Position numbers and translations under genes: made by a program. DNA of 64,000 nt, taken from contig NZ_MKGQ01000002.1 in NCBI RefSeq assembly GCF_001908105.1, positions 124,001 to 188,000 on the forward strand, in the 5' to 3' direction. Positions 10,797-50,197 of the stretch are shown in pieces. The notes beneath the pieces are model-generated. The model saw nothing but the letters and a program-made list of their open reading frames with translations. It made no database searches and had not been told where the DNA came from. The first letter of the stretch is position 1. Every line of letters starts with the position of its first letter. The stretch is from Xenorhabdus eapokensis (GTDB lineage Bacteria > Pseudomonadota > Gammaproteobacteria > Enterobacterales > Enterobacteriaceae).

Positions 10797-11762
10797 TTAT
10801 AAAGCCATTATTTTTACGTTCTTGTCAGGTGATATAACTGCTAGATTAAATACTTTTTTCATACTGTTTTGAATTGTAAGATATGTATTTTTCTTTAAAG
10901 GAGAGTGGCATTTAGCAGAAGGGGGGATTACTTTCCTATTAGGAATAGGATCTTCTTCTGCTAACACAATACATTTACCCATGTAATGCCATTTATCCAT
11001 TTTGCTTTTCCACAGGTCATTATATTTTTCAGCAGGGCAAACAATATTTGCCCAAGGATCGCATACCCATAATTCCTTTGGTAGATTGTGATATAACCTC
11101 CCCAGTATAGGTTTAAACATATTATGATTAAAAGAGCCTATTGTTATAAATACATGATCATGTACTCCTACAGCCCCCACTATTTGAATATAGACATGAT
11201 CAGGGTTTTCTAAACCAGAATTAAAAAACTTCAGAATATTATCAAGACAATTATGTATTAAATAATGAAACGCACAATTGCAGTAATCAGGGCAATTTCC
11301 GGATAGAAAATTATCTTTATTTTTCAATGTATAATTATATAGCGCCTTATAAGTATCAGCTTCTCTTTCTATTTCATTACGTTTATATAACCTCTCGTGT
11401 TTTTCTTGTTCATGAAGTTTAGATTTTATTTCATTTCTTTTTTTTATGCTTTGTTCATTAATTTCACTACCATGCATAATATTCTCATACATACTTCTAT
11501 AAATGTCATTTTTAAATTTGTCATTTTTAAATTTGTCATTTTTTTCAATATTATGTTCTTTTTTTCTGAATACATCTATAAAGTTTCTCATTTTATTAAA
11601 TTCATTATATTTATGTTTTTGCATTTCATTTCCATATAAAAATTCCTTATATGTTCCTTTTTCCTTAAGGGGAGCGTTGTCAAAATAATACTTATTACCT
11701 GATTTTGCTTTTAACATTTCCCTGGAGTGTCTTACCGCATCATTTAGAATAGATTCGATCAT
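10797..11762 (-). CDS. Putative Cys-His-Asp hydrolase or deamidase, effector-like
   Basis: A 321-residue protein without signal peptide. Residues 1-150 are highly charged and helical (Lys, Glu, Asn), with a tandem KNDKF repeat at 75-84. The C-terminal part has an ordered triad: Cys157 in SGNCPDYC, His203 in VHDHVFITIGS and Asp235 in WVCDPWAN. The order Cys, DH-V/F-hydrophobic, CDPWxN is typical of papain-like or transglutaminase-like folds used by bacterial toxins and secreted effectors. Function and target are inference only. GGGAG precedes the ATG by 7 nt. The low GC and the nearby transposase remnant suggest horizontal origin. Confidence 0.55.
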   Translation of the reverse strand: MIESILNDAVRHSREMLKAKSGNKYYFDNAPLKEKGTYKEFLYGNEMQKHKYNEFNKMRNFIDVFRKKEHNIEKNDKFKNDKFKNDIYRSMYENIMHGSEINEQSIKKRNEIKSKLHEQEKHERLYKRNEIEREADTYKALYNYTLKNKDNFLSGNCPDYCNCAFHYLIHNCLDNILKFFNSGLENPDHVYIQIVGAVGVHDHVFITIGSFNHNMFKPILGRLYHNLPKELWVCDPWANIVCPAEKYNDLWKSKMDKWHYMGKCIVLAEEDPIPNRKVIPPSAKCHSPLKKNTYLTIQNSMKKVFNLAVISPDKNVKIMAL

Positions 11763-35664: not shown

Positions 35665-36039
35665 CCGGATTTATCCCTCCAGTGATATAGTGACATCGCA
35701 TATTATATATAGCGTTATATAGTGTCTCTATATTTGGTTGTGTATTCAATCCGTTAATTCTGTTGCGAAGTGTAAGATTTTCACGCTTTCAACGACTTGT
35801 TCTTTAATCCCTGCCTGGCATGCGCTCAAGTTGAAAGGTTCGTTGGCAAAATCGACATTTTACTTCAGTCATCGCCATTTAATTTCTCCGAAAAAAGGGG
35901 AATTTTAGACCAACATCTACGGATTGAATACGTGACCCAATTTTTTAATAATAATCTTATTCCATTTATTAGGGGATTAATAGGAAAAGGTATAATTAAT
36001 ATATAATGATTTATTAATACATTCATTAGATTTTATATA
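35665..36039. other. Intergenic region after dusC
   Basis: No convincing gene. A plus-strand frame (35797-36006) lacks a ribosome site and family resemblance. Bases 35919-35940 are 20/22 identical to 10718-10739. The rest is AT-rich. Confidence 0.4.
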
Positions 36040-36070
36040 CCCACAGGCCGAATACTAATTGGCCTGTGGG
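36040..36070. terminator. Strong hairpin between dusC and sseA
   Basis: A perfect 10-bp stem (CCCACAGGCC / GGCCTGTGGG) with an 11-nt loop, followed by TTCATTTATT on the plus strand and T-rich sequence on the other side; it can serve both convergent genes. Confidence 0.75.
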
Positions 36071-36190
36071 TTCATTTATTGTTACTTTTACAATTTTCAA
36101 TCCTTTTCATCAATGTGTTAAATTAAGGCGTAGAAGAGAAATCGAATTTGTAAATCAGTAAACTCATCGCTATTTATTCGTTCTAATCAG

Positions 36191-37030
36191 CTATTTTTCT
36201 AATGGAAGTGAATCATCGGCTCCCCATTCAGCCCAGGAGCCATCATATAATCCTGCTTCTTTATGACCAATCATATCAAGTCCCAAAACTAAAATAGCGG
36301 CTGTCATGCCAGAGCCACAACTGGCTATGATGGGTTGGTCTAAATCAATACCTTGCTTGCGAAATATTGTCGTAATTTCTTCTACTGGCTTATAACGCCC
36401 ATTATCAATCAGGGCTGTCCACGGAACATTTTTAGCTCCGGGAAGGTGTCCCATTCTCAAACCTGGGCGGGGTTCTGGCACTTTTGCCTGAAAACGATCT
36501 TCTGCTCTGGCATCCACAAATTGTACTGCTATCTCATTACGGAGAGCATCGAGGATTTGCGCCTGAGAACAGACTTTTTCAGGGATAAACTGCACATTGA
36601 AAATTTCAGATGAGCGGGTCACTTTTCCTGATTCGGTTGGATAACCAGCTTGTTGCCAGCTTTGTAAGCCTCCTTCGAGGATACGGATATGACGAGCACC
36701 AAAGATGTTGAATGTCCACCATGCCCGTGGAGCAGAAAACATATTGCCTTGATCGTAAATGACCACCAGATGATTTTCACTGATACCCATTTTACCGACA
36801 ACCTGACGGAAAGTTTCCGGCTCTGGCAGCATGTGTGGCAGATTGGTTTGTAGATTGGCAACCTTATCAAGATCAAAAAATTGTGCACCCGGAATGTGTT
36901 TTTCTAACCAGAGTTGATGATAATCAACGGTTTGGGTGGGCATTGGAGCACTGGCATCAACCACAACGATATTCTCATCATGGCGATGTTCGTTTAACCA
37001 TTGTGGACTGACAAAATATTCATTTTTCAT
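36191..37030 (-). CDS. sseA: 3-mercaptopyruvate sulfurtransferase
   Basis: A 279-residue tandem rhodanese protein. The catalytic loop of the second domain is SCGSGMTAA near residue 237, with the CGSG-T/V pattern of mercaptopyruvate rather than thiosulfate enzymes. Other landmarks: HIPGAQFFDLDKV, DQGNMFSAPRAWW and EPRPGLRMGHLPGAKNVPW. The ATG at 37030 has AGGAAG 4 nt upstream and is preferred over the ATG at 37042, which has no such site. Confidence 0.93.
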   Translation of the reverse strand: MKNEYFVSPQWLNEHRHDENIVVVDASAPMPTQTVDYHQLWLEKHIPGAQFFDLDKVANLQTNLPHMLPEPETFRQVVGKMGISENHLVVIYDQGNMFSAPRAWWTFNIFGARHIRILEGGLQSWQQAGYPTESGKVTRSSEIFNVQFIPEKVCSQAQILDALRNEIAVQFVDARAEDRFQAKVPEPRPGLRMGHLPGAKNVPWTALIDNGRYKPVEEITTIFRKQGIDLDQPIIASCGSGMTAAILVLGLDMIGHKEAGLYDGSWAEWGADDSLPLEK

Positions 37031-37069
37031 GAGCTTCCTCATCGGGTGTTACGATACAAACCAACGTAT

Positions 37070-37225
37070 TTATTGTTGCCCTGTTGGCGCATTTTCCTGC
37101 TGAGTCTGTTGTGGTGCTTCTATTGGTGTAGTTGAGCGGGTATATATATTCATCCCTGCCAGAAAGATCCCACCAATTGAGCCGATGGAAAATAATATAA
37201 TGATAATAAGCAGGATTTTTTTCAT
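37070..37225 (-). CDS. Small single-helix membrane protein, unknown
   Basis: A 51-residue protein: a positively charged start (MKK), one long hydrophobic helix (ILLIIIILFSIGSIGGIFLAG) and a soluble tail rich in Gln, Thr and Pro. A lipobox is not seen. The ATG at 37225 is chosen because the longer frame (from 37318) adds residues unlike any signal sequence. It lies between sseA and dinG, on the sseA strand. Function unknown. Confidence 0.55.
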   Translation of the reverse strand: MKKILLIIIILFSIGSIGGIFLAGMNIYTRSTTPIEAPQQTQQENAPTGQQ

Positions 37226-37437
37226 CTCTGTGTCCAATAAGGTTTTAATAAAAAGAGGATAACAATCATCAAAATCCAAAAGATAGAAAGCCAAAAGTAT
37301 ATCGGCTTCTAGAGGCAAGACAAGCGATAAACTATTTTTGCAAAAGCTGGAAACTGTTTCCCAGTAATGGCCTTATAAGGCTGATCTGAGATTCACTCTA
37401 TGAGAGAATAGCTCCTCATTTTTAAGCAGAAAAATTC

Positions 37438-38517
37438 ATGGCACTTTCCAGTTCAATAAAAAATCAGATTAGTCAGTGGCATAAAGCATTGTCTATCCAT
37501 ATTGATGGTTTCATTCCACGCGCGCCGCAACGCCAAATGATCGCTGAGGTTGCGATGACATTAGCGGATGAAGAAGGGCGGCATTTGGTGATAGAAGCAT
37601 CAACAGGAGTAGGAAAAACGTTGTCATATCTGATCCCTGGGATTGCCATCAGTCGGGCAGAACAGAAACCATTGGTGGTCAGTACAGCCAATGTTGCTTT
37701 ACAAGATCAAATCTACAGCAAGGATTTACCGCTGCTGCGTAAGATTATTCCTGACCTGAAATACACGGGCGCTTTTGGTCGGGCACGTTATGTCTGTCCG
37801 CGCAACTTGGAAGCCATTTGCGCCGCAGAAGGAGAGCAGATTGACTTGATGTTTCTGGTTGAAGACCAGACTGAAATTGCCAATAGTGAAGAGCGGGAAC
37901 TATGTCGTCGATTGCGCAGTGATTATACGACATTTGTTTGGGATGGCTTACGTGATCACCATAAACTGGCACTGACAGATTCTCTGTGGACAAAAATCAG
38001 TACGGATAAAATGAACTGTCTGGCGCGCAATTGTCAGTTTTACTCCCGTTGTCCATTTTTTCTTGCCCGTAGGGAAATTGAAGATGCGGATGTTGTCGTC
38101 GCCAATCACTCTTTGGTTATGGCTGCGTTGGAAAGTGAATCTGTTTTGCCGGAAGCAAAAAATCTACTGTTGGTTCTGGATGAAGGGCACCATATTCCTG
38201 AAGTAGCAAGGGATGCCCTGGAAGTTGAAGGGGAAATAACTTTATTCCAGCTTAATGGGCAGTTAGATGCATTTATCCGTCATGTAGAACAGTACCTGGT
38301 TCAATTTCGGCCGACCAAACCGCCTGCTTTGGCAAATATCCCTCGATTGCAGACTCATTGTGCAACAATCCGTGAACACTTTACGGAATTGGCGGAGATA
38401 ACACAGGCATTATTGCCTGAGCGTGGTGAAGCGGAAGAATATTTATCCAATCGCATTGCATCAATGTTCCATCTTGATAACTTGGTTTTGATGTATCTTA
38501 TAATCATTGATCATTAA
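37438..38517 (+). pseudogene. dinG: Truncated ATP-dependent DNA helicase DinG
   Basis: The first ~340 codons match DinG: EASTGVGKT (Walker A), the iron-sulfur cysteines (YVCPRNLE, NCLARNC, SRCPFF) and LVLDEGHHIPEVARDAL. The family is about 700 residues long; here similarity stops near EEYLSNRI (about 38450) and an unrelated 15-20 residue tail ends at 38517. Helicase motifs III-VI are missing and no second half is found in the window. The break coincides with the end of the AT-rich natural-product operon, whose last stop codon is at 38461-38463. No SOS box with the right spacing was found upstream. Confidence 0.9.
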
Positions 38518-39090
38518 CCCTTGCAAGAAACTCTCATCATGAGAGCTTAAAATAAAAATTTTTTTGTCGGCAAAGGATTTGATCATCTTCCTAAAAAAAG
38601 TGATTGATTTTAAATCAAGACCATTAGTGGGTTCATCAAAAATATAAACATCAACATCAGACATTAATGCTGATGTCAGTAAAAATTTCTTTTTAGTGCC
38701 TAAAGACATATTGCCGAATTCTGTATTTAAGTAATGAGAGATATCAAAACCTGTTAAATAATCTACCAAATGAGCGTTATGATTTATCTTTTTATAACGT
38801 TTGGTTAAATTAATGATATCAAGGCCAGTAAGAAAATGGTAAAAATTAACTTGGTCAGATAGATAAAAACCTTGCTTTTGCAAGTTGAATAAATGATTTT
38901 TATGATCTTTGACAAAATTGATTTTACCTTTATTCATCTTTTTAATGCCAGAAAGGCAAGAAAGAAAGGTTGTCTTGCCAGAACCATTGATGCCAGTGAT
39001 ACGATTTATACCAATATTAAATTGACAATTAACATTTGAGAATATCTTTCTACTACCAACCATCGTCTCCAGTTCAATGATATCAAGCAT
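38461..39090 (-). CDS. ABC exporter ATPase of the RiPP cluster
   Basis: A 209-residue single-domain ATPase. Walker A is GINGSGKTT (33-41), the signature is degenerate (MSLGT, 129-133, instead of LSGGQ), and Walker B is VYIFDEPTNGLD (148-159), followed by the H-loop (ILSSHDESF). It pairs with the permease just upstream (8-nt overlap, AGGAGG before its ATG) and would drive export of the finished product or give immunity. Last gene of the operon; its stop codon lies at the dinG breakpoint. AT-rich. Confidence 0.88.
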   Translation of the reverse strand: MLDIIELETMVGSRKIFSNVNCQFNIGINRITGINGSGKTTFLSCLSGIKKMNKGKINFVKDHKNHLFNLQKQGFYLSDQVNFYHFLTGLDIINLTKRYKKINHNAHLVDYLTGFDISHYLNTEFGNMSLGTKKKFLLTSALMSDVDVYIFDEPTNGLDLKSITFFRKMIKSFADKKIFILSSHDESFLQGLMINDYKIHQNQVIKMEH

Positions 39091-40210
39091 AAATATATCC
39101 TCCTAAACAAGAAAATAAAACTATGGAACATAATGTGAGTAATTTTGTATAGTGTGTCTTTGATAGGTTCATTAGTGCAGTGAAAACAGATATTACATAA
39201 TAATAAAGAAATAAAACTATATACAATGAATTTGTCACAAAGAGGATGAATACACAACATGAGATAGTAAAAACAGAAAGGCATATACAATAATGAAGAA
39301 ACCGAAGTTTTTTTGTTGATAGAAAATTAATTAGTTGACAAAGGTGATTTTTATTGGTGTGAATTAAATTATAGAATAATATCATTGAGATATAGAGCAT
39401 GAATCCAAAATAACCTATTGTAATATAATTGATTTTTTTAGGTGCTTGTTGACAAGCTATATAAGCGGTGAAATATAAAACAACTATTGATGTGATCATA
39501 TTCACAACAAACGTTTTGTTAGTTGAGAGGAAATAAGATAAATCTATAATATAAGGAGATAAAAGTTTATTAGATAAAACAACACCATTTCTTTGATAAT
39601 TTTTTTTATCTTTTTTCTCATGAATAAATAGCTGAAAAGAAATGGTTAAAATAATAAAGGTATAAATTAAATTATGTAGTGGACTATATCTAAAAATAGA
39701 TAGGAAAATAAACAAAAATGATAATATTATGGTGTGAGAGAATTTTAATTCTGACAAGGAAAATCCAATTACGGCAAAAGATATGATCAAGAATAATACA
39801 GAAGTGACTTGTGATAATGGATTGACACTATCAGATAATAATCCTATAAAAAAGAAAATAGAAATAGGTATAGCACTATAAGCCATAAAAATAATTCGGC
39901 ATATAAAGAAAGTTCTTTTGTCTATTAATGATGAAATAAGACTATTTGAGTGTTTTAATGGAAATAACGGTTTTTGTACTGAATAAAAGATAACATATGC
40001 CAGCAGGAATATTGATATCAAGTAAAGGGAGGTTATCATGTTATTTGTAGTTATTACATATTGTGATAAATGTATCAATCCGATAAAAATCCCTCCCGCT
40101 TTTGCTGGAATAAATAAAAAACATAAAAATAAAATAAGATTTTTATTCCCTGATGCAAATTGTTTTATTTTACCTTTGTATTCTAATATATCTGCAATAA
40201 GTAAATTCAT
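39083..40210 (-). CDS. ABC exporter permease of the RiPP cluster
   Basis: A 375-residue polytopic membrane protein with about ten hydrophobic segments and no soluble domain; no C39 peptidase domain is present, so it does not process the precursor itself. AGGAGG precedes the ATG. Its sequence is not close to a named permease family that I recognise; the role is inferred from coupling to the ATPase gene. Eight bases separate it from the TauD-like gene. Confidence 0.75.
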   Translation of the reverse strand: MNLLIADILEYKGKIKQFASGNKNLILFLCFLFIPAKAGGIFIGLIHLSQYVITTNNMITSLYLISIFLLAYVIFYSVQKPLFPLKHSNSLISSLIDKRTFFICRIIFMAYSAIPISIFFFIGLLSDSVNPLSQVTSVLFLIISFAVIGFSLSELKFSHTIILSFLFIFLSIFRYSPLHNLIYTFIILTISFQLFIHEKKDKKNYQRNGVVLSNKLLSPYIIDLSYFLSTNKTFVVNMITSIVVLYFTAYIACQQAPKKINYITIGYFGFMLYISMILFYNLIHTNKNHLCQLINFLSTKKLRFLHYCICLSVFTISCCVFILFVTNSLYIVLFLYYYVISVFTALMNLSKTHYTKLLTLCSIVLFSCLGGYIYA

Positions 40211-40218
40211 TTTTCCTC

Positions 40219-41016
40219 CTAAAACCAGATTCTATATAGTGTTCTTTTCGAGTTTTTTGGGAAAAATGTTCTGGAATGTAAATAGAGATAATTGCTAAAT
40301 ATAATACATTGATTTTCTTTTAGTTTAAAGAAGATTTGATTTTCTTTTTGATGTATTAGATAATTTATATCTTTAAGCATTTCATAGATTTCTTGAGTGC
40401 ATTTGAATTCATTAATTAATGGTGAAAATGATATCCCTATGTTTTCTTTTATTTTTAAAAAAATGTTCTTTGTAAACTCATTATTTTTTTTAATGCAAGT
40501 GATACAGTCATTATGGAATAATAAATCCACCTTGTCACCATATTTCTCTATAAGTAATTTGTAAATTAATTTAGAATTAACTAATATATTGTCTCCCCCA
40601 AATTCAGAGTTTTCTTTACAATAAAGAGCAAGGATATTGGGTTGAATTTTTTCATGACCCTCATCAGTATGTACTGGTTGGGAATAATGAGATTCAAAAA
40701 ACCACTGTGGATTTTCAATGGCAGTTATTATTTCATATTTATTGTTATACTTATTTTTATTGTTAATGGTTTTTCCTAAAACACTCTCAAGTAGAATAAT
40801 TATTTCATCTATTTTTTCTTCTGTATCAAATTCGGTAAGATATATAGTGCCGTTAAAATAGATATTGTTAAATATTTCTTTCTTATTTTCTAGAGTGATT
40901 TTTTCTTTTTCTATCTTTTTTGTAAAATTTATTCCACTGCTTTTCCTTATATTATATTCTTTTGAGTTTATTGTTTTTTTAATTTCTTCAAATAAGTTTA
41001 ATTTATTGTATATCAT
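40219..41016 (-). CDS. TauD/clavaminate synthase-like 2-oxoglutarate oxygenase
   Basis: A 265-residue Fe(II)/2-oxoglutarate enzyme of the TauD type. The triad is His116-x-Asp118 in QPVHTDEGH and His247 in YLHSRTFF; Arg258 (SKRTLYRIWF) would bind 2-oxoglutarate. The middle section (PNILALYCKENSEFGGDNILVNS) is typical of TauD-like hydroxylases acting on amino acids or peptides. AGAGG precedes the ATG; 13 bases from the gene upstream. Its likely job is hydroxylation of the peptide or a derived small molecule. Confidence 0.85.
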   Translation of the reverse strand: MIYNKLNLFEEIKKTINSKEYNIRKSSGINFTKKIEKEKITLENKKEIFNNIYFNGTIYLTEFDTEEKIDEIIILLESVLGKTINNKNKYNNKYEIITAIENPQWFFESHYSQPVHTDEGHEKIQPNILALYCKENSEFGGDNILVNSKLIYKLLIEKYGDKVDLLFHNDCITCIKKNNEFTKNIFLKIKENIGISFSPLINEFKCTQEIYEMLKDINYLIHQKENQIFFKLKENQCIIFSNYLYLHSRTFFPKNSKRTLYRIWF

Positions 41017-41029
41017 TTTATCCTCTCTT

Positions 41030-41815
41030 TTAATTTATTATTTTTTTTGATTTTTCAAAAATGTACTTTGAACGTGTTGAGAAAAAATAAATATTTTTTT
41101 CTATTGCAATTGAAAATTTTTTACATAAATTTATTATTCTATCGGTTGAACCATGATAATTTGAAAATGAATTTTCATTAAAGAAATTTTTTCTGAACAT
41201 AAGTATTTCTATGCCAACAATATAACTATGAAATAACGTATATAAAGGGAATTTGTTATCATGAAAAACAGATTTTACTCCTTCTACTTCTATTGTTATA
41301 AATTTAGTATCATTTTCCATATGGAAGTGTACTATATCATCAATGAATAGAATCATATGTATTAGCTGATGAAAGATTAGCTCTAAAAAATCTTGATAAT
41401 TGAAATTATCCTTAAAATCAATAAATGTAAGACCAATGGTGTCTTGTGTAGTTCCATTTGTATATGAAAAAAGTTTGTTTATTACTATTATTTTTATAAT
41501 TCTATTTATTAATTTGTATATTTGTTCGTTTTTAGATAAAATATTTAACCATTTATAAAATGTGTTGTCTTTTATCATTTTATCAATTTTTTTTGAATTA
41601 TTAGAGAATTTGTTTTTTAGTGAAATAAGATAGTCATAGCAAAATGGAAATCCTCCTTCATAAGATGTTATTAATGGTGTGTTTTTATCTGGTATATCAG
41701 AAAAAACAGAATTTTCTTTTAAAAACTCATCATAATTATAAAATGAGAGATCATAAGAATTTATTGCTTTACTTATAGAGTCTGTAATAGAATTATACCC
41801 AAGAATATAGTACAT
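41030..41815 (-). CDS. HExxH-type peptide modification protein with variant HQLIH motif
   Basis: A 261-residue protein that resembles the HExxH domain proteins found in RiPP clusters, now known as 2-oxoglutarate-dependent beta-hydroxylases. The metal motif is here His149-Gln-Leu-Ile-His153 (FHQLIHMILF), with Gln for Glu. Downstream, HDNKFPLYTLFHSYIVGIEILM (split at His196 as likely third ligand) corresponds to the family block dPRPL-xGVLHG-x. No signal peptide. AGGAGG before the ATG gives strong translation. The altered Glu may change chemistry. The family call is by pattern only. Confidence 0.65.
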   Translation of the reverse strand: MYYILGYNSITDSISKAINSYDLSFYNYDEFLKENSVFSDIPDKNTPLITSYEGGFPFCYDYLISLKNKFSNNSKKIDKMIKDNTFYKWLNILSKNEQIYKLINRIIKIIVINKLFSYTNGTTQDTIGLTFIDFKDNFNYQDFLELIFHQLIHMILFIDDIVHFHMENDTKFITIEVEGVKSVFHDNKFPLYTLFHSYIVGIEILMFRKNFFNENSFSNYHGSTDRIINLCKKFSIAIEKNIYFFSTRSKYIFEKSKKIIN

Positions 41816-41827
41816 TTTTATACCTCC

Positions 41828-42901
41828 TTAAAAGGATTTTAGAATCAGGCTATAGATTATGTTGTTTATTTTTTTATTACCAAGAGAAAATCTAATACTA
41901 TTATTAGTTATTTCTGAATAATTATGAGGAAAAATACTTACTTTTATTCTATGCTTAATTAATTCATGATTAAATTTTGCTATATTGTTTTTGTCTCCTC
42001 TAAAAAACACAAAATTAGCTTGGCTGTTTGAAACGAAAACATTTTCTACATTAGATAATTTATTTATTATTTCATCCCTATATTTTTTTATGTTTTTTAT
42101 GTGCTCTTTATTTATTTTGTTTTTATCTATTATCTCTAGTGCTAACTTAAGTTTTATATCACTTAAAGAATATTGTAGTGAAAATTTATTGATGTATGAA
42201 ACCATATCTCGGTTCGAAATTAAATATCCAAAGCGAAGTCCAGCAAAACCTATTTTAGAAAAACTTCTAAGGATAATGACATTGTCAAAATTTGTTATAA
42301 GTTCCAATGAGGTTGAGTTGTTTTTTGAATAATTAATGTAAGCCTCATCTATAATGATGGGGCATTTGCAATGACTTGCTATTATTTTTAAATCTTCAGT
42401 TTTAAATAATACACCTGTTGGGTTATTAGGATTGTCGATAATGATTATTGGATTTGGATTTTTTTTAGCTGCATCAATGAATTTTAATACATCAATATTG
42501 AGATTAATATCTAAAGGTATTTTATAAACATTTGTTCTACATATTTTAGATAACCGTGTGAACATAAAAAATGAAGGAGATGGAATTATTATCGTTGTTT
42601 TATCGGTAGAAAATGATAGTAAAATAGTTTGGATTATTTCTAAAAGGCCATTACCAAGGAGTATATTGTTATCATAATCAATCTCATGATGTTCACATAA
42701 TTTATTTTTTATAATATTACAATCAATATTTGGGTATCTATTTATATCACTAAGTTTTATTTTTTCATTTTCTTTTTCAAGATGTAAATTTGTTTGATAT
42801 GGTAATTCCATTAGGCTTAAATCATACTTTTCATTAGTTGCTTTAAATTCTGGTATTTCATCGTATGTTTCACGGCGGTAAAAAAAACTTTCTTTTAACA
42901 T
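41828..42901 (-). CDS. PLP-dependent aminotransferase, HisC/CobD-like
   Basis: A 357-residue fold-type I class I/II aminotransferase. The cofactor-binding points are NPNNPTG near residue 157, the pyridine-binding Asp185 (IIDEAYINY) and the Schiff-base Lys216 (RSFSKIGFAGLRFGYLI). Overall it looks like histidinol-phosphate aminotransferase or threonine-phosphate decarboxylase. The ATG at 42901 with GGAA upstream is chosen over a TTG six bases before it. In this pathway it might transaminate an alpha-keto product formed on the peptide C-terminus, or release an amine; that is inference. Confidence 0.87.
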   Translation of the reverse strand: MLKESFFYRRETYDEIPEFKATNEKYDLSLMELPYQTNLHLEKENEKIKLSDINRYPNIDCNIIKNKLCEHHEIDYDNNILLGNGLLEIIQTILLSFSTDKTTIIIPSPSFFMFTRLSKICRTNVYKIPLDINLNIDVLKFIDAAKKNPNPIIIIDNPNNPTGVLFKTEDLKIIASHCKCPIIIDEAYINYSKNNSTSLELITNFDNVIILRSFSKIGFAGLRFGYLISNRDMVSYINKFSLQYSLSDIKLKLALEIIDKNKINKEHIKNIKKYRDEIINKLSNVENVFVSNSQANFVFFRGDKNNIAKFNHELIKHRIKVSIFPHNYSEITNNSIRFSLGNKKINNIIYSLILKSF

Positions 42902-42931
42902 AATCAAAGTTCCATATAAAAAGACAATAAA

Positions 42932-43702
42932 TTAAAGGATTTTTAGTGCTAAACTATTTTTCCAGTTTGAGTAGTCACCAATATCATTTCGCTCTATAAT
43001 TGGAGGAAATGATTTCCTTTTAAATTTAAAATACTCATCTCTAAGATCGCCTTCCAATGAATTATTATATGTAAAAAAAATACATCTTCTTTCCCTTTCT
43101 GAAAAATTGATTTTTGACATATGTAATAGAAACGAACTAAATATGAATATATCTCCAGATCTGGCTTGAACAGGGAGCCAGTTATATTTTTTATATGTAT
43201 TTTCCAATGCTTTTCCTTTATGGTGAGGTATTGTCTTTTTTTTAAATGGGATTTTTGAAATATACAAACAGCCATTACTTATTCTCATATCATCAATAGG
43301 TACCATTATGTTAAACATTTCGTTTTTGATAAATTTAGTAAATGCAAGATGATCTTGATGTGGTTTAAATCCTCCTCCTCCTTTTAATTTAAAATTTATT
43401 TTATCTTTAAATAATATGTATTTCTTTTCTAATATCTCTGATAGTAGAATTGATAATTTATTTTCTATGAAGTTTATAGCATTGTTTTCTTTGTGATCAA
43501 TGAAATTTTCAATCCTATTCAAAATTGTCTTTCCATCAATTATGCTAGATTCATAGTATTTCATGATTTTCCCAGGCTCATCTTTCTTATCATAAAGAAA
43601 TTGAACATAGATATTGAGTGATTTTTTCTCTTTATCGCTAAGGAAATTTTTTATCAGAATATATCCTTTTCTATATAAATCCTTCTTATATTGATTGTTC
43701 AT
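42932..43702 (-). CDS. PhyH-family Fe(II)/2-oxoglutarate oxygenase
   Basis: A 256-residue phytanoyl-CoA dioxygenase-like enzyme. The triad is His115-Gln-Asp117 (FKPHQDHLAF) and His194 (FLLHMSKINF), with the 2-oxoglutarate-binding Arg206 (RERRCIFFTYN). PhyH enzymes in natural-product pathways hydroxylate, desaturate or halogenate small molecules and residues. The HxD motif argues against halogenation. Its start overlaps the glycosyltransferase stop by 4 nt (ATGA). Confidence 0.88.
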   Translation of the reverse strand: MNNQYKKDLYRKGYILIKNFLSDKEKKSLNIYVQFLYDKKDEPGKIMKYYESSIIDGKTILNRIENFIDHKENNAINFIENKLSILLSEILEKKYILFKDKINFKLKGGGGFKPHQDHLAFTKFIKNEMFNIMVPIDDMRISNGCLYISKIPFKKKTIPHHKGKALENTYKKYNWLPVQARSGDIFIFSSFLLHMSKINFSERERRCIFFTYNNSLEGDLRDEYFKFKRKSFPPIIERNDIGDYSNWKNSLALKIL

Positions 43703-44424
43703 ATTTTATATAACTCCTCTTTTTTTATTATGTTACATATTTTTTTGTCTAATTTTTCTCTATTATTATATATAGAATAGATGTCTTTATATTTTATCGA
43801 AGTACACACCCAGTCATCTTTCCTATCAATGGAAATAATTGATATTTTTTTCTTTTTTGCAATAACAGCTACCCATATGTCAGCCATATTTTTTATTGGA
43901 AATGATGACATTGAGAAAGAATAAAGAGATGAATGGTAAGCTAGGGTACCAGTTCCTGGAATATTAACAATAATATCATGATCTAGTGATTTATTAAAAT
44001 GTATTCCTTTTTTATTTTTGTAATATGAAAAAATTGAATTTTTATCAATGATATTACCATGAACACATATAAAAGCGTTTCTTTCATATTTTTCTATTTT
44101 TCCTATGAGTTTTTTCATATAGTCTGGAGGGTATATTAAATCATCATCTAATGTGAATAAATATCCTGTCTTATTCATTAATGGATAAAATTTAGATGCA
44201 TCTCCAAAATCGCCAAATTGATAGCTCATATATATATTTATTTTATCTCTTTTTAAGAATTCAGGAATTTCTTTATAGCCGTTTAAATATACATTTAATT
44301 CATCAACTTGTGGGTATATTGAATGTACAGAAAAAAATAGGTTACACTCCCTTTCTGGTATGCTTGCCATCGATGCGATTTTTAAATCATAATGTTTTAT
44401 TAACATGTTATTTATATTTTCCAT
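43699..44424 (-). CDS. GT-A type glycosyltransferase-like protein
   Basis: A 241-residue protein with a nucleotide-sugar binding pattern: IASMASIPERE at the N-terminus, QVDELNVYLNGYKEIPEFL and the metal-binding triple Asp in TLDDDLIYPPDYM (93-95). This is the usual layout of family-2-like transferases. The start is uncertain: ATG at 44424 (overlapping the MNIO gene by 17 nt) or ATG at 44406. In the pathway it may attach a sugar to the modified peptide; sugar and acceptor are unknown. Confidence 0.75.
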   Translation of the reverse strand: MENINNMLIKHYDLKIASMASIPERECNLFFSVHSIYPQVDELNVYLNGYKEIPEFLKRDKINIYMSYQFGDFGDASKFYPLMNKTGYLFTLDDDLIYPPDYMKKLIGKIEKYERNAFICVHGNIIDKNSIFSYYKNKKGIHFNKSLDHDIIVNIPGTGTLAYHSSLYSFSMSSFPIKNMADIWVAVIAKKKKISIISIDRKDDWVCTSIKYKDIYSIYNNREKLDKKICNIIKKEELYKI

Positions 44425-45235
44425 ATGTTCTTTTATAAATTTCACGTGCAATATTTATTTCATCAATAATAGTTGTGTAATCATCGATATTAGAATCTCT
44501 TTCAATGATTACACCGTAAGTATCTGTCTTTGAAAGAGCAAACTCATATAATTCCCACACCTCTTTCCATATATTATTTGCGTGAGTGTCTACAATCATA
44601 TCGAATTTGTAAGCTCCACCTGCTAGGTGTATTTCAACTATATGATCTAGAGGTAATTTAAGTAAAAAATCCTTTGGATCAAAATTATGATTTATTGAAT
44701 TAATGTATAAGTTATTAATATCTAATAGCATACCACAATCACTATCCCTGATTATATTGCTTATGAAATCTATCTCTGACATATCAGAGCCTGGCATTTC
44801 ATAATAATATGTAATATTTTCAATAATGAAATTTTCGTTTACCTCTGATTTTATTTTTTTGATTTTATCTGTTATTTTGGAACTATTTTCAATAGAAAAT
44901 TGAATGGGCATTAAATGACCAACTTCAATACGTTCATGTCGTGTGGCAGATAAATGATCACTATACCATTTAGGTTTTTTATCCATGATGATCTTTTTTA
45001 ATTTTTCAAGATATTGATTATCTAAAATTTCATCGCTCCCTAATGACATATCGAGGCCATGAAAAACAATAGGAATTTCTTTGCAGCATTTTTCTAGATA
45101 ATAATCTTCTTCATCTAAAAAAAATTTTTCTGAATGTATTTCTAATATATCAATACTTTCAAGGTTTTTTAGGATTTCGGTTGAAAATGATGCTTTATAA
45201 TTAACACCGACACCAATTTTTTCATATTTACCCAT
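44408..45235 (-). CDS. DUF692 multinuclear non-heme iron oxidative enzyme (MNIO)
   Basis: A 275-residue TIM-barrel enzyme of the DUF692 family (relatives: MbnB, TglH, ChrH). The metal-ligand series is complete: IHSEKFF (His34, Glu36), VFHGLDMSLGS (His59), YSDHLS (Asp93, His94), IENITYY (Glu139, Asn140), LLDINNLYINS (Asp172, Asn175), NHNFDP (His183), EIHLAGG (Glu201, His203), DTHAN (Asp216, His218) and a final IIERD (Glu245). Such enzymes oxidise Cys or Asp/Asn residues of RiPP precursors, giving oxazolone-thioamide, thiooxazole, excised carbon or similar products. GAGGT precedes the ATG; 10 bases from the partner gene. Confidence 0.95.
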   Translation of the reverse strand: MGKYEKIGVGVNYKASFSTEILKNLESIDILEIHSEKFFLDEEDYYLEKCCKEIPIVFHGLDMSLGSDEILDNQYLEKLKKIIMDKKPKWYSDHLSATRHERIEVGHLMPIQFSIENSSKITDKIKKIKSEVNENFIIENITYYYEMPGSDMSEIDFISNIIRDSDCGMLLDINNLYINSINHNFDPKDFLLKLPLDHIVEIHLAGGAYKFDMIVDTHANNIWKEVWELYEFALSKTDTYGVIIERDSNIDDYTTIIDEINIAREIYKRTYGKYK

Positions 45236-45245
45236 GAATTATACC

Positions 45246-46094
45246 TCATATATTAAACGATACTAGGTTATTAGATCTAAGGTTTTTGAGAGTAGTTATA
45301 AAGCATTCTTTATCTATATTATATAATTTATTAATTTCTTGATATAATTCAGAAAATGATATGACTTTTTTGCATAAAAATATAATGTGATTAATTATAT
45401 CTCCAATTGATAATGAAATTATTTTTCTTGATTTTTGTTTTTTGTAGAAAAGAATATTTAATTCATTTTTATTTGGTGTTTTTTTTATAGCGTCTTTTGG
45501 TAATTTCTTATCAATTAGTGATAACACAGAAATTATATCTATATTGAATTTCTTTATTCTTATTGTTGAATTAGAAGCTATAAATAGTCTCTCAAGATCA
45601 ATATCATCGATATTGTATTTTAAGTTTTCTTTTGTGTTTGGATTTAAAAGGTTGTTTTGTTGTAAATCGATGAGTAAACTGTTTTTTTCTTTTTCATATA
45701 TGGCTATGTTTTTTAAAATGTTATCTTTTGTTTTGTTTATTATATGCCTACAAAAAAATATGGATTCGATAATTGGGTTTTTTTTTACTTCATTATCGAA
45801 ATCTAGGTTCAGCAAATATTTTTCAAATTCATATTCAAATTGCTCTTTGGCGAGATATTTATATAGATAAGGCAAAGCCATTATTAAACCCTCCATTCTT
45901 TTGTTTTTTTGTAAAATTGATGATTTGACAAACTTATCTCCATTTTTTCTAAAAAAATCAACTAATATATCTTTATTTTCTTGGGATATATAATTTATTT
46001 TCATAAATTTATTAGGGTTTTCATACATCTTTATTGAATATTTAGGGTTTGATATCAATTTAGATAGATAAATGTTTATTTCTTTCATATTCAT
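45246..46094 (-). CDS. MNIO partner protein with HvfC/TglI-like and RRE-like parts
   Basis: A 282-residue Lys/Ile/Asn-rich soluble protein. Residues about 5-95 follow the pattern of MNIO partner proteins (KNKRMEGLIMALPYLYKYL, EYEFEKYLL), as in TglI/HvfC/MbnC. Residues about 225-282 (IGDIINHIIFLCKKVISF, then ELYQEINKLYNIDKE, ending LRSNNLVSFNI) look like a PqqD-type winged helix, the RiPP recognition element that binds leader peptides. It lies between the precursor and the MNIO gene, the usual place for the delivery protein. Starts at 46094 (MNMKEIN) or 46088 (MKEIN). Assignment is by pattern and position. Confidence 0.7.
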   Translation of the reverse strand: MNMKEINIYLSKLISNPKYSIKMYENPNKFMKINYISQENKDILVDFFRKNGDKFVKSSILQKNKRMEGLIMALPYLYKYLAKEQFEYEFEKYLLNLDFDNEVKKNPIIESIFFCRHIINKTKDNILKNIAIYEKEKNSLLIDLQQNNLLNPNTKENLKYNIDDIDLERLFIASNSTIRIKKFNIDIISVLSLIDKKLPKDAIKKTPNKNELNILFYKKQKSRKIISLSIGDIINHIIFLCKKVISFSELYQEINKLYNIDKECFITTLKNLRSNNLVSFNI

Positions 46095-46140
46095 AGTGGA
46101 TTTAATCCTTTATAAATCAATGTTTATAGCCTCTTGTTTG

Positions 46141-46174
46141 AATACTTCCCCCTAACTGGATAGGGGGAAGTATT
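46141..46174 (-). terminator. Perfect hairpin between precursor and enzyme genes (attenuator or processing site)
   Basis: A perfect 14-bp stem (AATACTTCCCCCTA / TAGGGGGAAGTATT) with a 6-nt loop, starting 4 bases after the precursor stop. There is no T run after it, so it is more likely a partial terminator or RNA-stabilising hairpin that keeps precursor levels above enzyme levels, as is common in RiPP operons. Confidence 0.8.
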
Positions 46175-46178
46175 TTAG

Positions 46179-46250
46179 TCATGGGCAACCAACGCTATTG
46201 CAAAGAACTTCAATAGATGATTCGGATTCTTCAATAAATTCAATTTCCAT
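46179..46250 (-). CDS. RiPP precursor peptide of 23 residues
   Basis: A tiny gene not caught by size-limited ORF searches. It begins MEIEFIEESESSIEV (acidic leader, seven Glu) and ends LCNSVGCP, with two Cys (17 and 22) four residues apart. AGGAG lies 8 nt before the ATG, and a hairpin follows the stop. It is the first gene of the operon that encodes the partner protein and the MNIO. A short acidic leader plus a Cys-containing C-terminal core is what these enzymes act on. It has no signal peptide. The leader strand EIEFIE could pair with the RRE. No close match to known MNIO precursors is recognised. Confidence 0.85.
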   Translation of the reverse strand: MEIEFIEESESSIEVLCNSVGCP

Positions 46251-46301
46251 TATAAAACTCCTATTTACTGTTTATCTTTTACGTGAATATATCATTTTAT
46301 A

Positions 46302-46315
46302 TAGTTAGCTAACTA
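46302..46315. promoter_or_regulatory. Palindrome in the precursor promoter region
   Basis: TAGTTAGCTAACTA is a perfect 14-bp palindrome, 52 bases upstream of the precursor start. A binding site for a dimeric regulator is possible; no regulator gene is seen in the cluster. Confidence 0.4.
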
Positions 46316-46438
46316 AATTGATTTTTAACTTTGACTGTTATTAAGTCAATAGTTTTTTTTTACTATTGATAAAAATGGGATCTATATCAAAAACAATTTA
46401 AGTACATATTGATATGTAAGAATTAATTGTCGATTGTT

Positions 46439-46558
46439 GTTTATGTTTATGTTTATGTTTATGTTTATGTTTATGTTTATGTTTATGTTTATGTTTATGT
46501 TTATGTTTATGTTTATGTTTATGTTTATGTTTATGTTTATGTTTATGTTTATGTTTAT
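46439..46558. repeat. Hexanucleotide tandem repeat, 20 perfect copies
   Basis: The unit GTTTAT (ATAAAC on the operon strand) is repeated 20 times without error, plus a partial copy. It lies about 190 bases upstream of the precursor gene, in an 800-bp stretch that otherwise has no gene. Perfect microsatellites of this length change copy number by slippage. Confidence 0.97.
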
Positions 46559-46943
46559 GTTTTAAAAATGCTTTTTTAAAAAGTAGATGATATTTTTTTT
46601 ATCTGAGAAAATCCTGTTTTAGCTTATGGTAAATAAAATAACGTTTTTCATATCATAACTTATTAAAAACAATATAAATATAATATTATTGATTTATTGC
46701 GGTTATGAACAATAAACTCAAGATTCTGGTATGAGTATAAGTGCCGATAAGACGGAGAATGCTCGAATAACTTGGATGCTGCTCAATCAGAAGTTGGTTT
46801 ATGAACATTATCTTAATTTGGATTTAAATTAGGATAAGTTTATGTTGGGTTTATTTTTTTTTATTTTAATAAATTAATTTCTCATGATAAATAATTATGA
46901 ATCAATGTCAATAAGGAATAATTTAGAGATTGTTAGTCAGGTT
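46559..46943. other. Non-coding stretch between the RiPP operon and the secreted peptide gene
   Basis: AT-rich. One 33-codon plus-strand frame (46731-46832) has a slightly higher GC than its surroundings but no clear ribosome site, so it is not called. No promoter elements can be assigned with confidence. Confidence 0.3.
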
Positions 46944-46998
46944 ATATATACCCGCCATTATTAGGGCACTAATGCCTTCAATAATGACGGGTATATAT
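46944..46998. terminator. Long hairpin after the secreted-peptide gene
   Basis: Two 19-base arms (46944-46962 and 46980-46998) match at 18 positions and surround a 17-nt loop that itself can pair partly. It lies 54 bases downstream of the 47053-47253 gene and fits a terminator; it could also be a small palindromic repeat element. Confidence 0.6.
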
Positions 46999-47052
46999 CT
47001 AGGGCTGGAACTTACAACCTATTGAGAACACTGTTCTTCAATATAGTTTAAG

Positions 47053-47253
47053 TTATATCTGGTGCATACATTCGCTATATACCTCTTTAAGGCAAAATTG
47101 GTATTTTTTATGATGTTTAATATGCTTGGCACATATAGTACGTGCGCGTTCTTGGCATTTTTCAGATTTATCATTCAATTTTGCTTCTGTTGCAAATGTA
47201 TTCCAGGATATTAATAGCAGAATAGCTGTGCATAGAGTAAGTGAAGTCTTCAT
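47053..47253 (-). CDS. Small secreted four-cysteine protein, unknown
   Basis: A 66-residue protein with a clear signal peptide (MKTSLTLCTAILLLISWNTFA) and a basic mature part of about 42 residues. Its four cysteines form twin CX7C motifs (CQERARTIC and CLKEVYSEC) joined by a Lys/His-rich linker (KHIKHHKKYQF). This suggests a helical hairpin with two disulfides in the periplasm or outside. AGAGG precedes the ATG. It lies just beyond the RiPP operon on the same strand but is separated from it by 800 bases, so a link is only possible. Could be a bacteriocin-like or metal-binding peptide. Confidence 0.7.
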   Translation of the reverse strand: MKTSLTLCTAILLLISWNTFATEAKLNDKSEKCQERARTICAKHIKHHKKYQFCLKEVYSECMHQI

Positions 47254-47657
47254 CTTGTAACCTCTATATAAATTTTAATATTTTCAATGTCTTTACTCTG
47301 TATCAGAATAAAAACATATTTATCATAAATTCTCTTGGTTGAAATTCCAATCTATTTAGTGTTTTTCTAAGGCTTGATTTATGAATTATTTATTTAATGG
47401 ATTGATTTTATAAGTGATATTGTTATTTTTTTAGCGAGAAAATTTAATTAGCAGAGGTAATAATTAGTCGCCTGATTTAATATGAGTAATACTATTCAAT
47501 TTTAATGATGGGGATACTACTCTCGGTGCCAGATAAACTGAATGTTTAAATTTTTTTACCAGTATGTCACTATAAAAAACGGGAAGACTATAATTTCATG
47601 GAATGGGCAATTGTTTAAAATTTAAACCAAAAACTAGTTAAAGGAAAAGGATATAAC
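47254..47657. other. Non-coding region upstream of the cupin gene
   Basis: Nothing coding is seen. A near-perfect palindrome, GTTTAAA-A-TTTAAAC at 47613-47627, lies 30 bases before the cupin start and could be an operator. Confidence 0.4.
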
Positions 47658-48011
47658 ATGAGCCATATTGCCGCATTGAGAAAAATTAATAATTTAAAAC
47701 AAGAATTTGATTTAATAGAAGAAATTTGGTCACCGAAGGTGATAGCTCAAACAAACGAATATAAGATAATTATATTGCTCGCTGAAGGTGATTTTATATG
47801 GCACACACATGAAGATGAAGACAAGGTATTTATGGTTATTGAAGGTGAACTTCGTATAGATTTTAAAAATGATCACGTAATAATAAAGCAAGGTGAGTTT
47901 TTTGTAGTACCTAAAGGGGAAGAAAGTAAACCTTCGTCCAAGACATTAACCAAGCTGCTATTAATAGAACCCTATATAGTCGCGAATTCAGATCAGAAGT
48001 GTCACGCGTGA
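47658..48011 (+). CDS. Single-domain cupin protein
   Basis: A 117-residue cupin. Motif 1 fits G-x5-HxH-x4-E-x6-G (GDFIWHTHEDEDKVFMVIEGEL, read as two parts around the HTH of residues 55-57), and motif 2 is GEFFVVPKG near residue 90. Two His and Glu would bind a metal. Similar small cupins are isomerases, sugar-binding or regulatory proteins; the substrate is not evident. AAGGA precedes the ATG. AT content is intermediate between the island and the core genome. Confidence 0.85.
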   Translation: MSHIAALRKINNLKQEFDLIEEIWSPKVIAQTNEYKIIILLAEGDFIWHTHEDEDKVFMVIEGELRIDFKNDHVIIKQGEFFVVPKGEESKPSSKTLTKLLLIEPYIVANSDQKCHA

Positions 48012-48116
48012 TTTGAGTTGGAGGCAAGGGCGGGCTGATTAGCTCTTCCTTCTCAAGGATAAATAATATAAAAGTTAATATTATTTATCCTTTAAGCAAG
48101 AATAGGATTGTAACTG

Positions 48117-48341
48117 TTATTTATCTATTTTTTTCAGGAAACAGGTTTTCAGGACTAATCCCTTAATTTTATCGGCATTGCATTCAATTTCATCTTCGCG
48201 GTGGGTCAGGCGGATGTTTTTGATCAGCGTGCCGCGTTTCAGTGTCTTGGAAGTCCCTTTGACTTTCAAATCCTTGATAACCTGAACTGAATCACCATCG
48301 TTCAGTAATGCGCCGTTAGAATCTTTGACTTCGATATCCAT
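48117..48341 (-). CDS. PhnA (YjdM) C-terminal domain protein
   Basis: A 74-residue protein matching the C-terminal two thirds of E. coli PhnA/YjdM (VKDSNGALLNDGDSVQVIKD, LKVKGTSKTLKRGT). The N-terminal zinc ribbon with four cysteines is absent. The start is a normal ATG with GAGGA upstream and a clean N-terminus, so this is a stand-alone short form rather than a broken gene. Despite the name, phosphonate use is not its demonstrated role. Confidence 0.85.
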   Translation of the reverse strand: MDIEVKDSNGALLNDGDSVQVIKDLKVKGTSKTLKRGTLIKNIRLTHREDEIECNADKIKGLVLKTCFLKKIDK

Positions 48342-48451
48342 CTTATAGAATCCTCATGTTTATTTTTGAATCAAACAGGGATTATAGAGAGAAAAATGAT
48401 CTTTTTAAAGGTTTGCGGGATTTTTAAGGTTATAACTTCTTTTTTTAATGT

Positions 48452-48484
48452 TTTTTCCATCAATATCTGTTGTTGATGGAAAAA
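48452..48484. terminator. Hairpin between rhtA and the PhnA-domain gene
   Basis: TTTTTCCATCAA pairs with TTGATGGAAAAA around a 9-nt loop, with T and A runs at the outer ends; it would end rhtA transcription coming from the right. Confidence 0.65.
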
Positions 48485-48606
48485 GGCCACGGATGCGGCC
48501 CTAACTTAATGAGGAATAATATTTTTATTTTATTGCTCAATATTTGTTTCGATAAATCATAGAAATTTATCAAGATCACGGGATCATATCAGTATTTTTA
48601 AAGTCA

Positions 48607-49497
48607 TTATTCTACTTTTTCTATTTTAGTTTTCCGCTTAATAGTTGAGGTGGAGCCTATAGAAGCACAAATAATGCAAAAGAGAGCAATCCATTGAATT
48701 TTTGTCAAGTGCTCATTAAGGAAGATGATGCCTGATAATGCTCCCAATGCAGGCTCAAGGCTCATTAATGTCCCAAATGTTTTGGCCGGCAGGCGAGTAA
48801 GGGCAATCATCTCCAGAGTGTAAGGAAATGCGGTGGATAAAATAGCGATCCCCAGGGCAATAGGCAGCAGAGAAGTATCGAACAGGAGTTCAGTCCCAGT
48901 CTGTATTAATCCAATTGGGAAAAAGATAAAGGCAGCAATGAGTGAACCGATAGAGACCGTCGCAGCACCATAGCCCGCCCCAGCACGTTGCCCAAAAATA
49001 ATATAAAGTGCCCAAAAAACACCGGCTCCCAGTGCGTACACAATACCTATAGGATCGAGGGTATTGACGCTATTCCCGATTGGCAGCAGGAAGCTTAATC
49101 CGGCAATGACCATGGCAATCCAGAGAAAATCCAGAGGACGGCGGGAAGAAAACATGGCTACCGCTAAAGGTCCGGTAAACTCAAGCGCAACGGCAATGCC
49201 GAGTGGAATTCGGGATAAGGACAGATAAAACAGATAGTTCATTGCTCCCAGGGAAATGCCATAGGCGAAAAGAGGGAGTAATGAAGAACGCTGAAATTTC
49301 AGTCGCCACGGTTTAAAAATCAGAAATAGAATAATCGTTCCTAATGCAAGTCTCAGAGCGGTGACACCAGGCGCACCAATGACAGGAAATAATGTTTTAG
49401 CCAGTGAGGCTCCGGCTTGGATTGATGTCATTGACAGTAACAATAAAATCACAGGAAGCAGTGGAAAAGAAGCTGCCCGATGTTTGGAAAGAGACAT
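48607..49497 (-). CDS. rhtA: Threonine/homoserine exporter RhtA
   Basis: A 296-residue DMT/EamA transporter with ten helices in two repeats. It aligns along its length with E. coli RhtA (SIQAGASLAKTLFPVIGAPG, LRLALGTIILFLIFKPWRL, FTGPLAVAMFSSRRPLDF, LTRLPAKTFGTLMSLEPAL). It exports threonine, homoserine and some other amino acids. The start follows the family. Single gene. Confidence 0.93.
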   Translation of the reverse strand: MSLSKHRAASFPLLPVILLLLSMTSIQAGASLAKTLFPVIGAPGVTALRLALGTIILFLIFKPWRLKFQRSSLLPLFAYGISLGAMNYLFYLSLSRIPLGIAVALEFTGPLAVAMFSSRRPLDFLWIAMVIAGLSFLLPIGNSVNTLDPIGIVYALGAGVFWALYIIFGQRAGAGYGAATVSIGSLIAAFIFFPIGLIQTGTELLFDTSLLPIALGIAILSTAFPYTLEMIALTRLPAKTFGTLMSLEPALGALSGIIFLNEHLTKIQWIALFCIICASIGSTSTIKRKTKIEKVE

Positions 49498-49732
49498 TTT
49501 AAAAAAACCTCAGTTACAACGTGTTATTTAAGAGATGCCATCTTCGCAGTGAAACAGATATAACTCAACAGTATTATCAGTTGCATGTTTGTTAATAGAG
49601 AGTGTTGTGGCTTCGTCGGGGGATTTTGGCACATTGGAGGTATTCAGTGAGGGGACTTGATCGTTTTAATAATTATATTATCCTGTTGGTGGAAATTCAT
49701 ACTGACTCATTAAAAATAATCGAGAGAATATA

Positions 49733-50197
49733 ATGATAATAAAAACGGCTACTATGCAGGATATTGAGTCTATTTTATCTCTTTATCGTGTATTGTTCAG
49801 TGAAATGGCGGCGTTGCAGCCGGATAGAATGCAAGTGGCTGAACAAGAAAGAGATTTTATTGCTTCCAATATCAATAACGATAAATTTCATTTATTAGTT
49901 GCAGAAGATGAGAATGGCAGCATTAAAGGTTTTGCTATTGCTCAAGAGCAAACGACGGCTCCCTTTAATTGCCTGGTTCCGAGAACTTATGGTTATGTTT
50001 TTGACTTAATGGTGAGTCAGGATGCCAGAAATCTTGGAATTGGCCAGAAATTACTGGCTGGTATGAAAAAGTGGGCGCAAGAAAACCATTATTCACACCT
50101 TGAACTGAGCGTATTATCTCAGAATGTTGATGCGATACGTTTTTATATCAGGGAAGGGTATCAAGAAACCAGCAGAACGATGGCGCTTACCTTGTGA
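49733..50197 (+). CDS. GNAT-family N-acetyltransferase
   Basis: A 154-residue acetyltransferase. The acetyl-CoA loop is visible as VSQDARNLGIGQKLLAGMKKWA near residue 100 (Q/RxxGxG/A pattern), preceded by YGYVFDLMV and followed by LELSVLSQNVDAIRFYIREGY. Substrate unknown. GAGAG precedes the ATG. It ends in a terminator facing the oxidoreductase gene. Confidence 0.88.
   Translation: MIIKTATMQDIESILSLYRVLFSEMAALQPDRMQVAEQERDFIASNINNDKFHLLVAEDENGSIKGFAIAQEQTTAPFNCLVPRTYGYVFDLMVSQDARNLGIGQKLLAGMKKWAQENHYSHLELSVLSQNVDAIRFYIREGYQETSRTMALTL

Follow-up and report, generated by a model that had tools for sequence, protein, structure and literature searches.

The window analysed here is the whole 64,000-nucleotide stretch of Xenorhabdus eapokensis DNA (contig NZ_MKGQ01000002.1). 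On its minus strand, at 38461-46250, lie ten co-directional open reading frames that are packed or overlapping and all intact. The G+C content of this stretch is 23-26%, against about 40-48% across most of the remaining window, which bears out the tightly packed, co-directional and AT-rich genes described in an earlier sequence-only reading of this DNA. Genes for a precursor peptide, a multinuclear non-heme iron-dependent oxidative enzyme (MNIO), a glycosyltransferase, an aminotransferase, PhyH and TauD oxygenases and an ATP-binding cassette (ABC) ATPase are evident from the sequence, and the set is predicted to make a ribosomally synthesised and post-translationally modified peptide (RiPP). 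In order from the precursor, the genes are as follows.

46179-46250, minus strand: precursor peptide, 23 residues, MEIEFIEESESSIEVLCNSVGCP, proposed core from Leu16 (homologues at relatives' loci; upstream AGGAG)
45246-46094, minus strand: MNIO partner, 282 residues, PME-type-2-like, helical with a C-terminal domain resembling a RiPP recognition element (RRE) (AlphaFold, Foldseek, alignment)
44408-45235, minus strand: MNIO (DUF692) enzyme, 275 residues (PF05114; metal-ligand columns; TglH/MbnB profile matches)
43699-44451, minus strand: family 2 glycosyltransferase, TLDDD motif, start uncertain (PF00535, 24.7 bits; motif)
42932-43702, minus strand: PhyH-type iron/2-oxoglutarate oxygenase, HxD and distal His (PF05721, E 2.1e-18)
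41828-42907, minus strand: HisC-like pyridoxal phosphate aminotransferase, SFSK lysine, proposed N-terminal transaminase (PF00155, E 9.3e-41; hisC, 207.5 bits)
41030-41815, minus strand: HQxxH protein, 261 residues, divergent relative of 2-oxoglutarate-dependent HExxH oxygenases
40219-41016, minus strand: TauD-type iron/2-oxoglutarate oxygenase (PF02668, E 2.4e-18; HTDEGH, LHSR)
39083-40210, minus strand: hydrophobic 375-residue protein, likely ABC permease (hydrophobicity; ATPase neighbour)
38461-39090, minus strand: ABC transporter ATPase (PF00005, ABC_tran, E 3.5e-15)

The MNIO alignment was used to scan genome contigs, and this returned 13 loci: 11 with the gene set, one deletion remnant (L011) and one with another MNIO (L012). 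The window, the 11 scan loci and L059, found in the Legionella order, make up the 13 cluster loci compared below. The others are Photorhabdus akhurstii (L001), P. khanii (L002), a Coxiellaceae metagenome-assembled genome (MAG; L003), a Legionellales MAG (L004), Luteibacter (L005), a gammaproteobacterial MAG (L006), Xanthomonas populi (L007, decaying), Fluoribacter gormanii (L008), Legionella drozanskii (L009), L. shakespearei (L010) and Xanthomonas hortorum (L013). This neighbourhood comparison, proposed in the sequence-only reading, recovered the gene set in relatives and added links between core residues and enzymes.

The precursor ATG is preceded by AGGAG, and the strict precursor motif occurs a single time in the window, at the listed gene. 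A frame ending in C-N-[S/T]-x-x-C-P-stop was found once each in 12 of the 13 cluster loci, the window included, and a variant core, LCNRACS, stands at the same place in L006. Precursor-like peptides had been expected to accompany the gene set in relatives, and all 12 fetched loci held a homologue (11 with the strict motif, one variant). The strict motif was absent from 60 other MNIO loci (0/60; 238,586 bases, mostly pieces of ~3.8 kb), where a looser motif gave four chance-like hits. The residue before the first Cys is Leu in 12 loci and Ala in L004; [I/V]-E-E stands ahead of the core in 13/13 by eye, and is a plausible candidate strand for the RRE-like domain of the partner. Compared by eye with the window, the precursor DNA of L001 and L002 has changed largely at third positions. 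The precursor gene thus travels with the MNIO and its partner at all 13 cluster loci, as in an MNIO-modified RiPP.

That the 275-residue protein is a DUF692 MNIO had been set beforehand as a point on which the reading would stand or fall. PF05114 matched with 267.7 bits over residues 8-266, a complete domain, and the His, Asp and Glu columns were invariant in the alignment. The profile matched the TglH and MbnB structures, and the protein was aligned with TglH. Whole-length PF05114 and the kept metal-binding residues place it in the MNIO/DUF692 superfamily. Within that superfamily it scored under the cut-offs of the methanobactin, bufferin, HvfB, aminopyruvatide and chryseobasin MNIO models; the best NCBIfam model was BufB, below its cut-off (236.4 bits vs 310). 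Identity was 78% to Xenorhabdus bovienii and equally 78% to Photorhabdus.

The 282-residue partner had no Pfam match above cut-off and no MbnC match in NCBIfam. Its AlphaFold model (pLDDT 89.4) was matched by Foldseek to TglI (8hi7, E 2.6e-6) and NGO1945 (3dee, E 1.2e-5). An NGO1945/TglI-like fold with no DUF2063 match places it among the PME-type-2 partner proteins as defined previously (PMC12452194). With the window partner as tblastn query, the partners of L006, L007 and L013 were not picked up; for L006 and L013, frames at the partner position were aligned.

The BufB match, and a partner folding as the DUF2063 protein NGO1945 does, recall the bufferins and captophorins. The BufB match would fit a copper buffer that stays inside or close to the cell making it. 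The window precursor, however, has no signal peptide, EGKCG or Lys-Cys repeat by eye, and among the ten products there is no DoxX or DUF2063 match; many tailoring enzymes and an ABC ATPase are encoded instead. We regard such a buffer as very improbable.

The tailoring enzymes proposed earlier were largely confirmed by Pfam and NCBIfam matches, as for TauD, PhyH, the HisC-like aminotransferase and the glycosyltransferase. The last belongs to PF00535 (GT2) just above the cut-off of 23.3 bits, and its start is uncertain, with a TTG at 44451 overlapping the MNIO gene and ATGs 27 and 45 bases further in. The glycosyltransferases of Photorhabdus L001 and L002 are fused to a PIG-L-like domain. The aminotransferase is of class I/II, and its best NCBIfam model, hisC, fell under the cut-off of 276.55 bits. 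The catalytic motifs looked for are kept in the window: HQD at 115 and the distal His in FLLHMS at 191 in PhyH, HTDEGH and LHSR in TauD, SFSK in the aminotransferase and TLDDD in the glycosyltransferase.

The 261-residue protein had been called HExxH-type, and this has to be corrected, as its metal motif is HQLIH. HExxH is absent from the family, with HQxxH in 44/44 members. The protein has the ChlB-type fold that marks the 2-oxoglutarate HExxH peptide hydroxylases; TIGR04267 matched 8 of 17 members at E up to 1 (best 8.2e-9), the window member not among them. Identity is 87% to a Xenorhabdus thailandensis protein and 59-65% to other named relatives. A distant relative with HELTH was observed at L057:7493-10655 and L058:9397-11927, next to a hydrophobic frame of 459 residues whose ATPase-type matches are weak. 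A weakly methyltransferase-like frame also lies near it in L057, and a 50-residue frame just upstream of it in L058 could be a precursor; no MNIO was found at these two loci.

The ABC permease and ATPase named earlier fared differently: the ATPase is supported by its ABC_tran match, whereas the 375-residue protein had no Pfam or NCBIfam match and is called a permease because it is hydrophobic and lies beside the ATPase gene. Its homologues adjoin the ATPase in L001 and L002, and the L003 protein at this position gave only a sub-cut-off DUF6136 match. In Pfam and NCBIfam, no importer or copper family and no peptidase family was matched among the ten products. Peptidase families were likewise missing from 16 scanned products of cluster relatives (a subset of their genes), in agreement with the earlier remark that no peptidase is obvious, and the scanned full-length ABC exporters of L003, L004, L008, L010 and L059 had no peptidase domain match.

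Genes and core residues were then compared across the 13 loci in window peptide numbering, the window being searched over 36000-50000. Ser19 occurs in nine loci, all nine with the glycosyltransferase. Thr19 occurs in L005, L007 and L013, none with the glycosyltransferase and all with a LanM-like gene (a contig-edge fragment in L005, broken in L007), and Arg19 in L006, which has neither. PIG-L lies beside or fused to the glycosyltransferase in eight of these nine loci, each time with AHPDDE, the window being the one locus of the nine that lacks it; its Pfam score was above cut-off in L003 and below in the L001 fusion. Only L009 and L059, both with Ala21, lack the HQxxH gene, and a whole-genome search found it nowhere else in these two genomes. 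The gene is retained, with Gly21, in L010 and in L008, a relative of L059 (support 100/100), so the loss and the change to Ala21 seem to have happened twice each. Residue 21 is Gly (5), Asp (2) or Thr (3) in the other loci. PhyH is missing only in L006, which also has the only core without a C-terminal Pro. The aminotransferase (window, L001, L002, L003) and an acetyltransferase (L004, L006, L007, L013, L008, L009, L010, L059) never occur together; L005, cut at the contig edge, shows neither. TauD is present in 12/13 loci (not seen in the cut L005) and Asn18 in 13/13.

Changes at core positions 19, 21 and 23 each go with a different gene, and this points to a product that retains the entire core. 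This speaks against the peptide being a carrier only, as in pearlin or PQQ synthesis, with one or two modified end residues as the product. A carrier role would fit the shortness of the precursor, comparable to that of PqqA, and the likeness of the partner fold to TglI from the 3-thiaglutamate path. Pearlin clusters carry a tRNA-dependent amino acid ligase, and no such family was found among the scanned products of the window and its relatives. A carrier role is thus considered unlikely.

We propose that the intact ten-gene set works, on balance probably, like methanobactin synthesis, with the MNIO oxidising Cys17 and Cys22. MbnB turns two Cys into oxazolone/thioamide pairs (PMC11002830). In Methylosinus trichosporium OB3b the core starts with LCGS, transamination of the N-terminal amine follows leader removal, and MbnN carries the annotation histidinol phosphate transaminase (PMC3621798). 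By analogy, the leader (about residues 1-15) would dock on the partner and the MNIO would oxidise both Cys of the core LCNSVGCP to sulfur-bearing groups. From the gene and residue associations, the TauD enzyme may act on the always-present Asn18, the glycosyltransferase may add a sugar to Ser19, the HQxxH protein, an oxygenase by fold, may act at residue 21 and PhyH on the C-terminal Pro23. PIG-L would de-N-acetylate the Ser19 sugar in relatives, a step missing in the window. A general cell protease would free the core, after which the HisC-like aminotransferase would convert the new N-terminal amine (Leu16) to a keto group, as proposed for MbnN; the acetyltransferase of relatives would cap the same amine. 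The ABC pair would export the product. Metal binding by the product is possible. As no importer or copper family was matched among the ten gene products, the set is better explained by a bioactive peptide that is only exported than by metal uptake.

The whole of this chemistry is predicted, and several observations weigh against it. The MNIO scored 52.5 bits against the MbnB model, whose cut-off is 325, and the methanobactin motif C-(G|A|S)-(S|T) is replaced by C-N-(S|T) in 12/13 cores and C-N-R in one. L006 keeps the HQxxH gene despite Ala before the second Cys, and a single reaction at residue 21 would differ in kind between Gly, Asp, Thr and Ala. PhyH is linked to Pro23 by a single case, and TauD to Asn18 only by co-presence in nearly all loci. 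As the 13 loci stem from about six lineages and are hence not independent, the counts are only suggestive. Cys as the MNIO target is also not assured, because other MNIOs act on Asp, Asn, Phe or homocitrulline.

The same RiPP pathway might therefore have an MNIO that oxidises or cleaves at the invariant Asn18 or another residue, with the two Cys forming a disulfide or thioether ring. Among characterised MNIOs there are some that hydroxylate Asp (PMC13060819, PMC12636437) or Phe (PMC12257519), and one that cleaves an Asn at its N-C-alpha bond (PMC11002830). For a Cys-Thr ring, the Xanthomonas loci have a LanM-like dehydratase gene, though only a DUF4135 domain was matched. In X. hortorum (L013:5825-8923) this protein lies directly before the precursor, pairing MNIO with dehydratase (DUF4135, 205.6 bits; no LanC-like match at E 0.01). 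Bufferin targets, however, are Cys (PMC12452194), with BufB the nearest model, and both Cys are kept in all 13 cores although L006 spaces them differently. A target other than Cys is a rather doubtful prospect, but one to be taken seriously.

Among known systems, the methanobactins are the closest in plan. They share a 23-35-residue precursor, a 7-15-residue core, mostly at least two core Cys, an MNIO with partner and, in some operons, a HisC-like aminotransferase (PMC3621798). Besides the distant MNIO and the TglI/NGO1945-type partner, the window set differs in its C-N-[S/T] core, 2-oxoglutarate oxygenases and glycosyltransferase, and no TonB receptor or MATE family was found among its ten products. 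The Group V 'methanobactin-like' operon of Photorhabdus luminescens TT01 is an MNIO cluster in the genus of L001 and L002, and is described with one Cys in MbnA, a MATE exporter and no MbnC (PMC3621798). Judged by that description and not by alignment, it differs from the window set, which has two Cys, an ABC ATPase and other genes. TglHI of the pearlin (3-thiaglutamate) path resembles the set in partner fold and MNIO relationship; here, in contrast, the short precursor encodes its own Cys. The pfl/pos, nitrilobacillin pes and biphenomycin bpm clusters combine an MNIO with an HExxH-type oxygenase, and pfl also has a GNAT and no protease nearby (PMC12636437). They differ in their precursors and in having HExxH rather than HQxxH, and no nitroreductase, nitrile synthetase or radical SAM family was found among the ten window products.

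The arrangement was not recognised from described MNIO pathways in the sequence-only reading, and no description was found in the literature searched, which leaves subscription journals mostly outside. That literature held nothing on an MNIO in Xenorhabdus or on an MNIO with a glycosyltransferase, aminotransferase and precursor peptide, and the core words CNSVGCP, CNTVTCP, VLCNSV and CNSVDCP did not occur in it. One P. akhurstii genome paper notes a RiPP cluster, with no details of this kind in the passages concerned (PMC9491552).

Two features flank the gene set.

37438-38445, plus strand: 5' part of dinG, truncated at the downstream boundary of the gene set (DinG 6fwr match; intact-relative comparison)
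46438-46562, no strand: hexanucleotide repeat TGTTTA x 20.8, 100% matches (repeat finder)

The dinG fragment matches residues 1-334 of 716 of DinG 6fwr and is 81% identical to an intact 745-residue DinG, with homology ending at 38445; the remaining 3' part was not found in the window. The repeat, of perfect copies, lies ~190 bases upstream of the precursor and is absent from the repeat-finder output for L001 and L002; changes in its length could, speculatively, tune or switch expression. A promoter scan gave 7 sites, compared with 10.4 on average in shuffles. A 66-residue frame that lies upstream of the gene set, at 47053-47253 on the minus strand, has a signal-peptide-like start followed by four Cys and no Pfam match. 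A further AT-rich stretch (9777-11762, ~30% G+C) holds two frames of unknown function amid housekeeping genes.

The gene set is rare in the groups surveyed: 4/143 genomes of the Legionella order (E-value gap 1.7e-122 to 1.9e-72), 2/297 of the Xanthomonas family and, intact, 1/12 of Photorhabdus. By eye, its neighbours in L001 and L002 are other than in the window, and this scattered distribution looks like horizontal spread. Copies do decay: Photorhabdus bodei (L011:9149-9664) keeps a deletion remnant, the MNIO gene start followed by an apparent ATPase gene end, and in X. populi a stop interrupts the HQxxH gene, with LanM-like, ATPase and MFS frames split by eye. Such decay, the broken dinG, the missing PIG-L and the long repeat raise the question of whether the window set is itself a decaying or non-functional copy. 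Its ten intact frames and catalytic motifs, kept where inspected, make this quite unlikely.

The gene set behaves as an MNIO RiPP in the tests made and, should the core assignments prove right, would come near to forming a separate class. In its boldest form, which we put forward only tentatively, this class would have one exchangeable enzyme per core residue. Its product would be an MNIO-modified two-Cys octapeptide, N-capped by transamination or acetylation, with an amino-sugar on Ser19 or a dehydrated Thr19 and residue 21 oxidised by a new HQxxH type of iron oxygenase. Scattered insect-, amoeba- and plant-associated Gammaproteobacteria would make and export it as a metal-active weapon.

The predicted product, small, heavily oxidised and bearing a sugar, would belong to a kind of natural product for which we have found no description. 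MNIO chemistry has so far not been predictable from sequence. In this family of short precursors, single tailoring enzymes have been gained and lost naturally, which provides testable residue-by-residue assignments for several enzymes, including an oxygenase-fold enzyme whose motif Glu is always Gln. If true, the methanobactin building plan would extend to bacteria living with animals, amoebae and plants, and would gain glycosylation and several 2-oxoglutarate oxidations.

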